Origin: Caulobacter sp. NIBR1757
GTDB taxonomy: Bacteria > Pseudomonadota > Alphaproteobacteria > Caulobacterales > Caulobacteraceae
Length of the DNA: 64,000 nt
Reading direction: 5' to 3'
Assembly (NCBI RefSeq): GCF_027912495.1
Contig: NZ_CP115463.1
Location: 2,007,501 to 2,071,500, forward strand
Position 1 is the stretch's first letter; every line of letters starts with the position of its first letter. The notes below the pieces were generated by a model. That model had not been told where the DNA came from. It saw only the letters and a list, made by a program, of their open reading frames with translations, and searched no databases. Below, in pieces: positions 43,443 through 52,021 of the stretch. Made by a program: the position numbers and the translations under genes.

Positions 43443-43838
43443 CTAGCCTGGCCCGCCCTTGGTATGGAAGTGGCCGCCCGTCTTGCTGAGCGCCGTGATC
43501 GGGGCCTTCTTGCCGATGGTCGGCAGCTGCTTCACCACGCCGCTGAACACGGGCTTGATGGCGGCCGGCGAAGTTGCGGTGACGCAGACGGTGCGTTCGC
43601 CCTCGCGGCCCCAGGGGGTGACCTTCACGTCGGCGACCAGGTCCTTGTGGCCGGCCAGCCAGGTTTCGACGCGGGCGTAGGCCTCGCCGTCGATGCCCAT
43701 GGCGTAGCTGCCGAAGGAGATGGAGACATCGCAGCCTTCGCCGCCCGGGCCCGGGGCCGGCGGCGGCTCGGCGCCGCTGTCGGTGGCGCAGGCGGTGGCG
43801 AGCAGGGCGGTGGCGGCGAGGGCGAGGAAGGGTTTCAT
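43443..43838 (-). CDS. Small lipoprotein of unknown function (GCDVS family, paralogue 2)
   Basis: 131 residues. The signal ends in a lipobox ([17 protein letters not shown], Cys17), followed by a Pro/Gly-rich linker. The domain [42 protein letters not shown] with [18 protein letters not shown] matches that of the neighbouring gene at 42933, including both Cys. The ATG overlaps the purL stop by four bases, so it is coupled to purL translation, an odd partner for a purine enzyme. Function unknown. Confidence 0.8.
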
Positions 43839-46045
43839 GCGGCGGTTCCCATGAAGGACGGCAGCCAGCCCTCGTGGGTGACTCGCAGCTTGTCCAACGC
43901 GATGGAGAAAAGCCCCTTCGAGGCAAAGGCGTTCCCGCCGGCCTGGCCGACGACGGAGGCGTGCAGGCCGGCGGACGCGGCGGCGGCCAGCAGCGGGGCC
44001 GGGTCGGCGACGGCGACCAGGTAGCGGGCCTGGTCCTCGCCGAACAGGAAGGGGTGGGCGTTGGTCGGGCTGGAGGCGTCGAGGGTGACTCCGACGCCGC
44101 TGGCCAGGGCCATCTCGGCGGCGCCGATGGCGAGGCCGCCGTCGGAGAGGTCGTGCACCACAGTCACCGTGCGGGCGACGATCTGGGCGCGGACGAAGTC
44201 GCCGGTGCGGCGTTCGAGGTCGAGGTCGACCGGCGGCGGGGCGCCGTCCTCGCGGTTCAGCAGTTCTCGCAGGTAGAGGCTGGCGCCCAGTTCCCCATGG
44301 TTGACGCCGATGACCACCAGGGCGTCGCCGTCCTTCATCGAGGAGAAGTCGGCGCGGTTGGCGTAGTCGACCAGCAGGCCGACGGCGCCGACGGTCGGGG
44401 TCGGCGGGATGCCCTTGCCGTTGGTCTCGTTGTAGAGGCTGACGTTGCCGCTCACGACCGGGAAGTCGAGGGCGCGGCAGGCCTCGGCCATGCCCTCGAT
44501 GGCCTTGACGATCTGGCCCATGATCTCGGGGCGTTCGGGATTGCCGAAGTTGAGGTTGTCGGTGATGGCGATCGGATCGGCGCCGACGGCGGTCAGGTTG
44601 CGCCAGGCTTCGGCGACCGCCTGTTTGCCGCCCTCGTAGGGGTCGTTCAGCACATAGCGGGGGGTGCAGTCGCTGGTCACGGCCAGGGCCTTGCGGGTGC
44701 CGTGGACGCGGACGATGCCGGCGTCGGCGCCGGTGGCGCTGTCTTCCAGGGTGTCGGCCATGACGTGGCGGTCGTACTGCTCCCACAGCCAGCGCTTGGA
44801 GGCGACGTCCGGGCAGCTCATCAGGGTGAGGACGGCGGCTTCCCAGTCGGCGGGGGCAGGCACCGTCTTGGGATCGATGTGGGGGTGTTTGACCGGCTCG
44901 GTCCAGGGGCGGTCGTACAGCGGGGCGTCGTCGGACAGCGGGCTGAGCGGCAGGTCGCAGACGACCTCGCCCTTGTGCTTCAGCACGATGTGGCCGGTGT
45001 CGGTGGTGACGCCGATGATGGCGGCGTCGAGGCCCCACTTTTCGAAGATGGCGTGGCCGTCGCGTTCACGGCCGGGCTTGAGGATGGCCAGCATCCGCTC
45101 CTGGCTCTCCGACAGCATCATCTCGTAGGCGGTCATGCCCTCTTCGCGCTGCGGCACCATGTCGAGGTCGAGCTCGATGCCGACGCTGCCCTTGCCGGCC
45201 ATCTCGACCGAGGAAGAGGTCAGGCCGGCGGCGCCCATGTCCTGGATGGCGGCGACGGCGCCGGTGGCCATCAGCTCGAGGGTGGCCTCGATCAGCAGCT
45301 TTTCGGCGAAGGGGTCGCCGACCTGCACCGTCGGGCGCTTCTCGTCGCTGTCCTCGTCGAACTCGGCGCTGGCCATGGTGGCGCCGTGGATGCCGTCGCG
45401 GCCGGTTTTGGAGCCGAAGTAGACGACCGGCAGGCCGGCGGCCGGGGCGGCCGAATAGAAGATCTTGTCGGCGTCGGCCAGGCCCACGCACATGGCGTTG
45501 ACCAGGATGTTGCCATCGTAGCCGCGGTGGAAGTTGGTCTCGCCGGCGACGGTGGGGACGCCGACACAATTGCCGTAGCCGGCGATGCCGGCCACCACGC
45601 CCTCGACCAGACGCTTGGTCTTCGGATGGCTGGGGTCGCCGAAGCGCAGGGCGTTGAGCAGGGCGATGGGCCGGGCGCCCATGGTGAAGACGTCGCGCAT
45701 GATGCCACCGACGCCGGTCGCCGCGCCCTGGTAGGGCTCGATGTAGCTGGGGTGGTTGTGGCTCTCCATCTTGAAGATGCAGGCCTGGCCGTCGCCGATA
45801 TCGACGACGCCGGCGTTTTCACCCGGGCCGCAGATGACGCGCGGGCCCGTGGTGGGGAATTTACCCAGGTGTTTTCGGCTGGACTTGTAGCTGCAGTGCT
45901 CCGACCACATCACCGAGAAGACGCCCAGTTCGACGAGATTGGGCTCGCGATTCAGACGCTTGAGGATGACCGCGTACTCGTCGGGCTTGAGCCCGAATTC
46001 GGCGGCGATTTCGACCATGGGCTTGGCGGGAGGAGAGGCGCTCAT
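43835..46045 (-). CDS. purL: Phosphoribosylformylglycinamidine synthase subunit PurL
   Basis: 736 residues, as expected for the small-PurL type that works with separate PurQ and PurS. Family motifs: [22 protein letters not shown] near residue 45, [40 protein letters not shown] and [18 protein letters not shown]. It carries out the ATP-dependent amidation of FGAR in step four of purine synthesis. Its partners purQ, purS and purC lie to the right on the same strand, but an IS element and two unrelated genes separate it from them. The 3' end overlaps a lipoprotein gene. Confidence 0.96.
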
Positions 46046-47098: not shown

Positions 47099-47350
47099 CT
47101 TATCGAAGCTGTCAACGATTGTACCACGGCGCGGGCCTGGGAAGAGGGCCGTTTGACGGAAGTCGCTGATCTTGCGTGACATTTCGGGTGAGGTGGGCGC
47201 GGGGAATGTAGGCGCCGGCGTTGACAGGGCGTAGGCGCCGAGGCGGGGAATGTTGATGCTCCGGTGAGACGTCATGCCCACGCGGGCGTCGCGGGGCGCT
47301 CAGATCGGCTTGTGGGCCCCAATTTCCAGATGAATATGTCTAGACATATT
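47099..47350. repeat. About 250-bp dispersed intergenic repeat, copy B
   Basis: Homologous to 23828-24078 over the full length: same opening (TTATCGAAGCTGTCAACGAT), same middle block (GAATGTAGGCGCCGGCGTTG) and the same terminal palindrome AATATGTCTAGACATATT (47333-47350). The minus-strand frame through the repeat is open in both copies, but the two predicted peptides differ at about 40% of positions, so the base changes do not favour silent sites; protein coding is unlikely. Confidence 0.85.
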
Positions 47351-47354
47351 GCTC

Positions 47355-47378
47355 AAACGCCCGGCGGGCGGGCGTTTT
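47355..47378 (+). terminator. Intrinsic terminator-like hairpin after repeat copy B
   Basis: AAACGCCC and GGGCGTTT pair in an 8-bp stem around a 7-base loop, and a further T follows (TTTT run at 47375-47378). It could end the DUF1801 transcript after it has passed through repeat B. Confidence 0.5.
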
Positions 47379-47485
47379 GGAGGGGTGCATTCCCTGCGCT
47401 GTCATCCTCCGGCCGCGAAGCGGACCGGGGGACCCATCCGTCCGCGTGAAAACCGCCAGGAGTCTTTCAGCCCCGGCTTGATGGG

Positions 47486-47498
47486 GTGGACGACCCCC
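47486..47498. repeat. Left subterminal inverted repeat of the IS
   Basis: GTGGACGACCCCC, perfect complement of 48819-48831. It lies five bases inside the left ATGGG. Confidence 0.85.
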
Positions 47499-47554
47499 GG
47501 CGGCATCGGTGTGCCAAGATGGGTTGTCTGAACTCATCTCAAGGAGGGCCGTCC

Positions 47555-48598
47555 GTGGAGCATCCTACGCGCATATTCATCGATACGTCCAAGCAGCTGT
47601 TTCAGCTGCACGGTGTGGACGCAGGCGAGAAGGTCGTCATTCGCCGGCAACTTCGGCGGCGGGAGATGATCCCGTTCTTCACCAGGCTGGCGCCGACGGT
47701 GATCGGACTGGAAGCCTGTGGAGGTTCACACCACTGGGCGCGGGAGCTGGCGGGGCTTGGCCATCAGGTGATGCTGCTGCCGGCCCAGTATGTGAAGGCC
47801 TATCTGAAGCGAGGCAAGAACGACGGTCGCGACGCCGAGGCCGGCTGCGAAGCGATGAGCCGGCCGACGATGAGGCCGGTGCCGGTCAAGACCGTTCAGG
47901 AGCAGGCGGTGCTGATGCTGCTGGCGACGCGGGACCGACTGGTGCGAAGCCGCACCCAGCTGACCAACGCCATTCGCGGCCATGCCGCCGAGTTCGGGCT
48001 GATCGCTCCGACCGGGCTTGACAAGATCGAGCCGCTGCTGGAGCGCGTCGCCGCCGACCAGGCTTTGCCCGACCTGGCCCGGGACCTGTTCGCGGGTCTT
48101 GGCCGCCAGCTCCTCGCCCTGCAGGCGCAGATCGTCGAGATCGACGCCCGGATGGCGGCGCATCATCGGGCCGATCAGACCAGCCGCCGGCTGGCCAGGA
48201 TCCCCAGCGTCGGGATCGTCGGCGCGGTCATGCTCGCCGCCAAGACCCCGGACCCCAAGGCCTTCCGCTCAGCGCGCGACTTCGCCGCCTGGCTGGGCCT
48301 CACGCCCAAGGACCATTCCACTGCCGGCAAGACCCGCCTTGGCGGCATCACCCGGGCCGGCGACGAGGCGCTTCGAGCCGTCCTGGTCTGCGGGGCCATG
48401 GCGGTGATCCAGAACGCCAAAGCGGGTCGAGGACAGCCGTGGCCATGGCTCAATCGGCTATTGGCCACAAAGCCGACCAAGCAGGTCGCCGTCGCCCTCG
48501 CCAACAAGACCGCCCGCATCGCCTGGCGCCTCATGGTCAGCGGACAGGACTACGATCCGTCTCGCCGCCTCGCCGCGCCTTCCCAACAACCTGCCTAG
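47555..48598 (+). CDS. IS110-family DEDD recombinase (transposase)
   Basis: 347 residues from a GTG with AAGGAGG seven bases ahead; an in-frame ATG 23 codons upstream lies next to the left inverted repeat and is rejected. RuvC-like catalytic residues are in place: Asp10 (FIDTSK), Glu53 (IGLEACGG), Asp90 and Asp93 (KNDGRDAEA). The C-terminal Tnp_20 domain is clear: RLARIPSVGIVGAVMLAAK, then AWLGLTPKDHSTAGKTRLGG with candidate catalytic Ser255. Family enzymes excise a circular intermediate and insert it at sites chosen by an RNA encoded in the element. No stop or frameshift is present. Confidence 0.95.
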   Translation: MEHPTRIFIDTSKQLFQLHGVDAGEKVVIRRQLRRREMIPFFTRLAPTVIGLEACGGSHHWARELAGLGHQVMLLPAQYVKAYLKRGKNDGRDAEAGCEAMSRPTMRPVPVKTVQEQAVLMLLATRDRLVRSRTQLTNAIRGHAAEFGLIAPTGLDKIEPLLERVAADQALPDLARDLFAGLGRQLLALQAQIVEIDARMAAHHRADQTSRRLARIPSVGIVGAVMLAAKTPDPKAFRSARDFAAWLGLTPKDHSTAGKTRLGGITRAGDEALRAVLVCGAMAVIQNAKAGRGQPWPWLNRLLATKPTKQVAVALANKTARIAWRLMVSGQDYDPSRRLAAPSQQPA

Positions 48599-48639
48599 CC
48601 GGCAGGCTCAACCCGTTCCTTGCAAGAGGCAGATGGTGT

Positions 48640-48780
48640 GATCGATCGATCAAATGGATGGGACACTCCGCGGGACCCAACGGCGTCACAGACCGCTGCC
48701 TTGATCGGAACCCATCCCGCGCAAACCATCTTGGCGACGGCCAATATCCAAGGCCGCCAGACCGGACATATGGGCGCAAG
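48640..48780 (+). ncRNA. Predicted bridge RNA/seekRNA of the IS element
   Basis: Two stem-internal loop units follow the recombinase gene. Unit 1: outer stem GGATGGG (48656-48662) with CCCATCC (48711-48717); inner stem CGGCG (48681-48685) with CGCTG (48694-48698, one G-U pair). Its internal loop holds GGGACCCA (48672-48679), complementary to the right insertion flank TGGGTCCC, and CTTGAT (48700-48705), identical to the left flank. Unit 2: outer stem GCGC (48719-48722) with GCGC (48774-48777), an inner GGCC stem, and ACATATGGG (48766-48774), identical to the right IS end (48830-48838). This is the layout of target- and donor-binding loops. Ends of the RNA are a guess. Confidence 0.65.
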
Positions 48781-48818
48781 CGACTACGATCAGATCAATC
48801 CGCGACGACTTGCAGGGT

Positions 48819-48831
48819 GGGGGTCGTCCAC
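48819..48831. repeat. Right subterminal inverted repeat of the IS
   Basis: GGGGGTCGTCCAC, perfect complement of 47486-47498. It is followed by ATATGGG at the junction with the repeat arm. Confidence 0.85.
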
Positions 48832-48890
48832 ATATGGGTCCCCCGGTTCCCGCTGCGCGGGCCCGGAGGATGACAGCTTTTGGGTAGGCG

Positions 48891-49553
48891 CTAGGCGCTG
48901 GCCAGGGCGCTCTGGAACAGCAGGGCCCCGTCGGCCGAGCCCAGTTCGGCTTCGAAGGCGCGGTCGGGGTGGGGCATCAGGCCGATGACGTTGCCGGCCG
49001 GGTTGATGATGCCGGCGATGTCGCGGGCCGAGCCGTTGGGGTTGTCACGATAGCGGAAGACAACCTGGCCCTCGCCCTCCAGCCGGTCGAGGGTGGCCTC
49101 GTCGGCGAAGTAGTTGCCCTCGCCGTTGCCGACCGTCATCACCGCCTCGCGGCGCCCCTGGTAGGCGGCGGTGAAGCGGGTCTGGCCGTTGACGATGTCG
49201 AGGGCGACCGGCTTGCAGACGTATTTCAGACCGGCGTTGCGGAGCAGCGCGCCCGGCAGCAGGCCGGCCTCGCACAGCACCTGGAAACCGTTGCAGATGC
49301 CGACGGTGGCGACGCCGCGTTCCACGGCCGCCTTCACCTCGGTCATGATCGGCGACAGCGAGGCCATGGCCCCGCAGCGCAGGTAGTCGCCGTAGGAGAA
49401 ACCGCCGGGCAGGACGATCAGATCGACCTTGTCGGGGAGCGCCGTGTCGCCGTGCCAGACCATATCGACGGAGGCGCCGGTCGAGCGCTCGACGGCGACC
49501 TTGCAGTCGCGATCGCAGTTGGACCCCGGGAAGACGATGACGGCGGCTTTCAT
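48891..49553 (-). CDS. purQ: Phosphoribosylformylglycinamidine synthase subunit PurQ (glutaminase)
   Basis: 220 residues. Class I glutamine amidotransferase: [21 protein letters not shown] at the N-terminus, nucleophile elbow [22 protein letters not shown] with the catalytic Cys, and the His/Glu pair in [11 protein letters not shown]. It supplies ammonia to PurL with PurS as a bridge. It lies downstream of purS with a palindromic repeat in between, and the IS-bearing repeat separates it from purL. Confidence 0.95.
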
Positions 49554-49873: not shown

Positions 49874-50110
49874 TCACCCGATCTCGACCCGGTAGCTTTC
49901 GATAACCGTGTTGGCCAGCAGCTTGTCGCACATGGCCTTGACCTCGGCTTCGGCCGAAGCCTTGTCGCCGCCGACCTCGAACTCGAGGACCCGGCCGACG
50001 CGGACGTGGTTCACGTCCGCCCAGCCCAGCCCGTGGAGGGCGTTCTCGATCGCCTTGCCCTGCACGTCGAGGACGCCGGGCTTGAGGAAAACGTGGACGG
50101 TGGCCTTCAC
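49874..50110 (-). CDS. purS: Phosphoribosylformylglycinamidine synthase subunit PurS
   Basis: 78 residues: [46 protein letters not shown]..., the complete small PurS fold (GVLDVQGKAIENAL is the signature). It bridges PurL and PurQ. The start is GTG at 50110, sharing its G with the purC stop (TAGTG), so purC and purS are translationally coupled. Confidence 0.94.
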   Translation of the reverse strand: MKATVHVFLKPGVLDVQGKAIENALHGLGWADVNHVRVGRVLEFEVGGDKASAEAEVKAMCDKLLANTVIESYRVEIG

Positions 50111-50868
50111 TAGTGCAGTCCCCCCTGGATGACAGTCGGCATGTCTTTCATGATCCCGAGGCGACGGGCGACCTCGGTGTAGCTCTCGATGACGTCGCCC
50201 AGATCGCGGCGGAAACGGTCCTTGTCGAGCTTTTCGTTGGTCGTCGAATCCCACAGCCGGCAGCTGTCGGGGCTGATCTCGTCGGCCAGGATGATGCGCG
50301 AGAAGTCGCCTTCCCAGACACGGCCGAACTCGATCTTGAAATCGACCAGGGTGATGCCGACGGCGCCGAACATCCCGGTCAGGAAGTCGTTGATGCGCAG
50401 GGTCGAGGCCATGATGTCGTCGATGTCCTGGGTGGTGGCCCAGTTGAACGCCGTGATGTGCTCTTCGGCCACCAGGGGATCGCCCAGTTCGTCGTTCTTG
50501 TAGCAGAACTCGATGATCGAGCGGGGCAGGGGGGTGCCCTCCTCGAGGCCCAGGCGCTTGGACAGGCTGCCGGCGGCGATGTTGCGGCAGATCACTTCCA
50601 GCGGGATGATCTCGACTTCCTTGATCAGCTGTTCGCGGTGGTTCAGCCGGCGGATGAAGTGGTTGTGGACGCCGATGGCGGCCAGCTTGGTCATCACGAA
50701 CTCGCTGATGCGGTTGTTGATGACCCCCTTGCCCTCCAGCACCGCCTTTTTCTGGGCGTTGAAGGCGGTGGCGTCGTCCTTGAAGTACTGGATCAGGGTG
50801 CCCGGCTCGGGCCCTTCGTACAGGATCTTGGCCTTGCCTTCGTAGATCTTCTTGCGGCGGGTGGTCAT
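50110..50868 (-). CDS. purC: SAICAR synthetase (phosphoribosylaminoimidazole-succinocarboxamide synthase)
   Basis: 252 residues. [35 protein letters not shown] is the family N-terminal ATP-binding entry; [34 protein letters not shown] and [31 protein letters not shown] are signature 1 and 2 regions. It joins CAIR and aspartate using ATP. First gene of the purC-purS unit, with a one-base overlap to purS. Confidence 0.96.
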
Positions 50869-51896: not shown

Positions 51897-52021
51897 CCTG
51901 TCATCCTCCGGCCGCGCAGCGGACCGGGGGACCCAGCGGGGCTCTGGATTGACTCCTGGCAATCTTCACGGGGACAGTTGGGTCCCCCGGCTCCCGCTTC
52001 GCGGGCCCGGAGGATGACAGG
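51897..52021. repeat. Palindromic intergenic repeat, family 3, intact copy
   Basis: CCTGTCATCCTCCGGCCGCG to GGACCGGGGGACCCA on the left, TGGGTCCCCCGGCTCCCGC to GGAGGATGACAGG on the right, around a 50-bp centre (ATTGACTCCTGGCAATCTTC). It is the intact form of the IS-split copy at 47398-48877. Confidence 0.88.

Follow-up and report, generated by a model that had tools for sequence, protein, structure and literature searches.

A predicted seekRNA/bridge RNA in the non-coding end of a Caulobacter IS1111-family element matches the REP-like palindrome that the element occupies

How an insertion sequence found only within one kind of dispersed palindromic repeat selects its site is the question raised by a complete 1,356-bp element of the IS1111 family at 47479–48834 (plus strand) of the window, the whole 64,000-nucleotide stretch of the Caulobacter sp. 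NIBR1757 chromosome analyzed here; six copies are present in this genome. The element very probably carries its own address: the non-coding region (NCR) downstream of its transposase gene is almost certain to encode a structured guide RNA (seekRNA/bridge RNA) directing the DEDD recombinase into the REP-like palindrome. The direct evidence comprises the anatomy of the element, covariation of guides with targets, covariation of a donor guide with the element end, a conserved fold, and the choice of sites within one genome. A guide RNA had been proposed in a first-pass annotation made from the letters of the window; that interpretation is supported, and the observations beneath it are confirmed in part. 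The strings it had quoted are all in place, namely GGATGGG (48656–48662) and CCCATCC (48711–48717) as the arms of an outer stem, GGGACCCA (48672–48679) and CTTGAT (48700–48705) as loop strands, TGGGTCCC (48835–48842) at the right flank, and ACATATGGG (48766–48774) and CCATC (48726–48730) in a second loop.

The element contains a gene for a DEDD transposase/recombinase of 347 amino acids with a GTG start (47555–48598, plus strand), the product of which scores above cut-off for both PF01548 (38.1 bits) and PF02371 (72.7 bits). Four acidic residues picked by eye, D10, E53, D90, and D93, are candidate catalytic residues, and GLTPKDHSTA at residue 248 represents the rarer TA form of the IS1111 C-terminal motif, described as GL-P----S(T)G and occasionally TA (PMC11187229). 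A 13-bp left subterminal inverted repeat (sTIR; GTGGACGACCCCC, 47486–47498, plus strand) is 100% complementary to its right counterpart (GGGGGTCGTCCAC, 48819–48831, plus strand). Beyond the repeats lie a left terminal extension of 7 nt (TGATGGG, 47479–47485, plus strand), the first two bases of which are the core dinucleotide TG, and a right extension of 3 nt (ATA, 48832–48834, plus strand), in keeping with the end rule of 7 nt on the left and 3 nt on the right (PMC11187229, Introduction). The NCR 3′ of the transposase gene, source of the predicted guide RNA, spans 48599–48834 (plus strand) and measures 233 nt from the stop codon to the end of the sTIR. Assignment to an IS1111-type element, as first annotated, is upheld by the two Pfam domains, an sTIR within the usual 11- to 13-bp range, 7/3-nt extensions without target duplication, and a long downstream NCR; the traits of IS110 proper (IS621-like) are absent, the NCR lying downstream rather than upstream and the sTIR measuring 13 bp. 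The element is flanked by purL on one side (43835–46045, minus strand) and by purQ on the other (48891–49553, minus strand), with purC farther on past purQ (50110–50868, minus strand). A second, different IS110-type transposase, a 342-codon open frame, is also present in this genome in three copies of the same score (L001–L003).

Beyond the 13-bp inverted repeats, the flanks of the element themselves form inverted arms. They are the left (47398–47478) and right (48835–48877) parts of an interrupted REP-like palindrome of ∼130 bp, the right part starting with the core TG and TGGGTCCC. Sequences matching the left flank are present at no fewer than ∼40 further genomic locations (71 hits when separate arms are counted; 40 of 75 candidates scored). 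Another copy of the palindrome lies within the window at 51898–52020 (chromosome 2059398–2059520), with arms GCTGTCATCCTCCGG...CCGGAGGATGACAGC. The center of the right arm is variable among copies, with CA, CT, CC, or other dinucleotides before TGGG, and the left arms, judged by eye, mostly read GTTGGGTCCC on the other strand. Comparison of 28 repeat loci, 3 occupied and 25 empty, together with the 7/3 end rule, sets the boundaries of the element at 47479 and 48834. The centers of the empty copies read CATGGGT in eight, CTTGGGT in five, CCTGGGT in five, and other variants in seven. The left flank ends in CT and is followed by the TG core common to the right flank, matching an empty target of the form C-T-TG-GGTCCC. 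CTTGAT, annotated at first as identical to the left flank, is present in none of the 25 empty copies; the empty targets and the end rule divide it into four bases of flank and core, CTTG, for which the identity holds, and two bases, AT, which belong to the IS. An empty target of CTTGATGGGTCCC was rejected as no exact site exists in the genome, and the target was accordingly corrected to CTTGGGTCCC.

Relatives were gathered by an order-level search of 398 genomes, 64 of which (own genome included) had matches at E ≤ 1e-30, giving 30 loci including one own, and a class-level search of 385 genomes, 23 of which (own genome included) had matches at E ≤ 1e-60. A scan of genome_contigs returned only two relatives, both used as loci, and 15 plasmid loci were added; a scan of viral_contigs returned no relative, and a further search of just two genomes added none. 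Ten of the 81 loci processed gave no ends. From the remaining 71, eight were dropped (own copies L004, L005, L006, L009, and L124; L089 and L100, whose left flanks were truncated; L133, whose ends had been called wrongly) and four more were removed as redundant, leaving 59 non-redundant elements, the Caulobacter element and 58 relatives. At L140 (2360–2926), in pNGR234a, an annotated IS630-family transposase CDS starts inside the NCR of ISRsp4 and overruns the right end of the IS at 2519, as if ISRsp4 had inserted into an IS630 gene. The left extension and the right flank open with the same dinucleotide in 52 of the 59 elements (TG in 45, CG in 5, TA in 1, and AG in 1), which supports the TG-core reading, with 7 of 59 disagreeing.

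The predicted target loop occupies 48656–48717 (plus strand) and is closed by a 7-bp outer stem (48656–48662 with 48711–48717). Its top-strand (right target) guide, GGGACCCAA (48672–48680, plus strand), is complementary to TTGGGTCCC of the empty target; the complementarity to the right flank reported at first is real, and the guide extends to 9 nt rather than ending with GGGACCCA. The bottom-strand (left target) guide, GCCTTG (48698–48703, plus strand), matches all six occupied targets through its CTTG and is a full match to the GCCTTG present at L009. Antisense and sense guides had been placed on opposite sides of the loop, and the order observed, a top-strand and then a bottom-strand target segment, the two overlapping, is that published for IS1111 seekRNAs (PMC11187229).

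The first-pass annotation had asked whether such loop strands change together with the insertion flanks of related copies. Searched over the whole NCR with no limit on position, the elements matched their own flanks with a total score of 875.5, as compared to 709 ± 9.6 for permuted flanks, a total reached by none of 10,000 permutations, and 26 of the 59 gave their own target the top rank. Counted back from where the right inverted repeat ends, best matches mostly started at ∼150–175 nt for the top-strand guide and at 130–150 nt for the bottom-strand guide. When matching was confined to position windows, chosen after this unrestricted search and identical for own and swapped flanks, the two-strand match total was 826, versus 508.5 ± 12.4 for permuted flanks (maximum 568.5 in 20,000 permutations, which ignore relatedness), and the own target ranked first among 59 candidates, ties allowed, in 46 elements and within the top three in 55. 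The four elements with the own target outside the top three were L080, L088, L095, and L105; the flanks of L080, L088, and L095 resemble those of other members of the set. Across the 59 elements, the target-loop strands change with each element's own insertion flanks.

The fold enclosing these guides is likewise conserved. In an alignment of 55 of the 59 elements (L099, L117, L122, and L123 left out), RNAalifold placed the outer stem in exactly the columns first drawn. Of 18 pairs counted, all seven in the outer stem and all four in a donor hairpin exhibited two-sided change, with 89.6% and 92.7% of cells paired, respectively; over all counted pairs, 80.5% of cells were paired, as compared to 28 to 47% when partner columns were slid by 1 to 3. 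Cells with two-sided change numbered 181, versus 59 ± 8 in shuffles, and four of five shuffle measures were reached by none of 500 shuffles. The fifth measure was weak, 15 pairs with two-sided change versus 12.2 ± 1.4, and was reached by 26 of the 500. A hairpin between the two guides was counted separately because MAFFT alone mis-registers it (40% of cells paired). With its right arm fixed, this inner hairpin forms four of four pairs in 51 of the 55 elements (shuffled arms, 16.4 ± 3.1; maximum 25). The Caulobacter element is one of the four exceptions lacking the conserved inner hairpin, and the inner stem first annotated here (48681–48685 with 48694–48698) is therefore at best a local variant; it can be drawn, but the conserved 4-bp hairpin has its right arm in another register. 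Single-sequence folding energy was unremarkable (z −0.50; −1.15 for 48656–48717 and −0.08 for 48656–48783).

To keep a covariance model small, 41 of the 54 alignment rows other than that of the window element were used, none of them from this genome. The model bears out the proposal of a structured NCR end: the conserved RNA element was detected at 48645–48784 (plus strand) with 77.3 bits (E 4.7e-20), the next-best match in the window scoring 14.1 bits. When 16 further loci were offered, the model detected IS4321 (52.4 bits), IS5075 (50.1 bits), an interrupted copy from the own genome (77.3 bits), and six of ten relatives lacking correctly called ends (58–126 bits). It missed the other four of these (no match in L102, L125, and L130; 7.4 bits in L132), and nothing above 9.8 bits was found in L001–L003, the other IS110-type element of this genome. 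Rfam contains no family for the guide RNA, and only two sub-threshold matches fell elsewhere in 47300–49000.

The second loop contains the candidate donor guides. ACATATG (48766–48772, plus strand), the predicted left-donor guide, exactly repeats the right IS end (AC-ATA) and the core TG: two bases from the close of the right inverted repeat come first, followed by the 3-nt extension and then the core. An exact copy of the own right-end 7-mer is present in 54 of the 59 elements, within the interval 40–80 nt upstream of where the right inverted repeat ends. The 7-mer takes 14 forms among the 59 elements, 12 of which are matched exactly, and mismatches total 5, as compared to 70.8 ± 4.4 after permutation (minimum 54 in 20,000). 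Exact matches occur with TG, CG, TA, and AG cores. In the seven elements with disagreeing cores (L078, L098, L111, L131, L123, L129, and L121), the core within the donor guide equals the left core in four, the right core in two, and neither in one; the right core is compatible with the target guide as well in three of them (L078, L098, and L111). The putative right-donor guide, CCATC (48726–48730, plus strand), would pair with GATGG of the left IS end and is the weakest part of the assignment. A CATC-like counterpart, the anchor motif needed for comparison, is recognizable in 52 of the 59 elements. In these 52, position 6 of the left extension covaries with the RNA (37 Watson-Crick pairs versus 22.3 ± 2.7 after permutation, maximum 33 in 10,000), position 7 exhibits no association (13 versus 11.6 ± 2.7), and position 3 is T in 11 elements, in all of which the RNA keeps T, a mismatch. 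The second donor strand covaries with the left IS end only in part, and "weak match," as CCATC was first described, is a fair term.

These data bear on whether the RNA reads the element ends at all. The target loop could be the sole guide, with ACATATG near 48766 acting in the DNA, as a direct repeat of the right end to which the transposase binds; we regard this as possible, though unlikely. It would accord with the poor covariation of CCATC, with the report that an 82-nt short seekRNA of ISEc11 is sufficient for transposition (PMC11187229), which argues that the donor loop is dispensable if that RNA ends before it, and with the statement in the same paper that the domain binding the IS ends was not known in 2024. 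However, the 7-nt segment follows the right end and core through 54 of 59 elements, the domain around it includes a covarying hairpin, and in IS621, which is arranged in the same way, experiments have demonstrated reprogramming of the donor (PMC11208160). We lean toward the view that IS1111 RNAs are full bridge RNAs, in which a strict 7-nt right-end donor guide co-evolves over at least 12 variants and the left-end partner is largely degenerate, such that the right end would be read by RNA and the left mostly by protein and sTIR. Sufficiency of the published short seekRNA does not explain this asymmetry of end recognition.

The six copies of the element lie on one 4.47-Mb chromosome. Beyond the start codon, the transposases of six of six copies agree at 346 of 346 residues, and the NCR is the same in the five uninterrupted copies, which lie in the same kind of host repeat. 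The sixth copy (L008, chromosome 3493600–3496600) is interrupted by 1,043 bp that start immediately downstream of the transposase stop codon; the insertion includes an IS630-family transposase gene and thereby separates transposase and NCR, ACATATGGGTCCC is retained at the right end, and over its first 200 nt the NCR is identical to that of the other copies. L008 represents a natural test of whether the guide RNA must be co-transcribed with the transposase. The interruption of L008 and the drift of the inner hairpin in the window copy would both suit a decayed, immobile relic in which the guide no longer matters, but that state is improbable for an element with six copies at different sites, an unchanged transposase, and an NCR preserved even in L008 over its first 200 nt.

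All six copies occupy the REP-like palindrome and carry identical guides, and the genome also contains sites that were left vacant. CTTGGGTCCC is present at 9 unoccupied places, five of them inside the repeat, and at the 6 occupied ones. [A/G/T]TTGGGTCCC is present at 49 places, 6 of which are the guide inside the IS copies; the 43 left fit the 9-nt top-strand guide perfectly and mismatch only at the bottom-strand-guide base. Occupancy of 6 of 15 full CTTGGGTCCC sites, as compared to 0 of 43 [A/G/T]TTGGGTCCC sites (Fisher p = 1.2e-4, six insertions counted as independent), indicates that both guide strands matter. Choice of the target by the transposase protein or by the cruciform shape of the palindrome, with the loop likeness due to chance or to captured target DNA, is highly improbable: a structural preference is conceivable with every copy in a palindromic repeat, and single-sequence folding is unremarkable, but the loops of the 59 elements fit their own flanks far better than swapped ones, mostly at the same place in the RNA, and sites differing by the single bottom-strand-guide base stand empty.

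Selection of the target by a guide RNA suggests the following course of events. The ends of the IS would join, and the junction would create a promoter, TTGCAG-17-TATGAT, from a −35-like TTGCAG (48810–48815) and the TA at 48833–48834 that completes a TATGAT −10 (48810–48834 overall, plus strand), with the 17-nt spacer arising only in the joined circular form; the resulting transcript would contain transposase and NCR. In 51 of the 59 elements, the score of the junction exceeds that of the integrated right end, with 6 equal and 2 lower, and a joined-end promoter has been described for the IS1111 family (PMC11187229). We infer transcription, RNA processing, recombinase binding with ribonucleoprotein formation, and strand exchange from published relatives, namely ISEc11, ISPa11, and ISKpn4 (PMC11187229) and IS621 (PMC11208160); in the relatives, the seekRNA co-purifies with the transposase and is essential (PMC11187229). 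The target guides would direct the DEDD recombinase to the right arm of the dispersed REP-like palindrome, at CTTGGGTCCC. In the second loop, ACATATG would pair with the right IS end and core, CCATC would form a weak pairing with the left IS end, and the guide RNA may thus be able to hold circular donor and target together. Antisense control, by pairing of the leader (47513–47526) with the NCR (48722–48735; 14 nt with one mismatch, 10 nt exact), was considered and rejected as chance because the longest complement lies elsewhere in the 29 relatives examined.

Interest in programmable RNA-guided recombinases is wide, and how evolution re-aims such systems is shown by natural pairs of guide and target. 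The mechanism has been known since 2024 as seekRNA/bridge RNA; what is new is this element, its target repeat, and its guide. It is a complete, readable case in one genome, with six insertions, nine empty full-match sites, and 43 sites mismatched at one guide base. The survey of relatives adds a count, the right-end donor strand being kept almost perfectly and the left-end strand not, and provides a natural collection for direct tests of how IS1111 elements recognize their donor ends. Such a count was not found in the portions of PMC11187229 and PMC11208160 consulted and may exist elsewhere. By title or abstract opening, a scope outside of which many subscription papers and all bioRxiv preprints fall, no other publication on IS1111 guide RNAs was found.

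IS1111 seekRNAs were demonstrated experimentally in 2024, with ISEc11, ISPa11, ISKpn4, and ISPst6 among the members (Siddiquee et al. 2024, PMC11187229), together with natural re-aiming between ISEc11 and ISXne4 and targeting of REP sequences by ISPa11. The Caulobacter element resembles these in its DEDD transposase, sTIR with 7/3 extensions, and downstream NCR, in the location of the top-strand match 5′ of the bottom-strand match, and in the overlap of the two matches in the target; like ISPa11, it has a REP sequence as its target. It differs from the IS1111 seekRNA elements described in that paper in its target repeat and guide letters, which here are read from sequence alone, and its donor-matching strand is the part left open by the ISEc11 short seekRNA result. 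The nearest named elements encountered are ISShsp1 and ISRsp4, with transposases 61% and 60% identical; both are in the RNA alignment with an exact left-donor guide each, and their targets and loop letters differ. In IS4321 and IS5075, with transposases ∼37% identical, the covariance model finds the same RNA, and both, judged by eye, contain AAAACGGAA, which complements the right flank, and ATAGATT, a copy of the right end together with the two bases that follow it; they target the terminal inverted repeat of Tn21-family transposons, according to a reference title in PMC11187229. With the IS110/IS621 bridge RNA (Durrant et al. 2024, PMC11208160), the predicted RNA shares target and donor internal loops and guides that overlap at the core dinucleotide. 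Unlike IS621 as described there, the Caulobacter element has its RNA at the opposite (right) end with the guide order reversed, a long sTIR, a core of TG rather than CT, and a weak right-donor guide.
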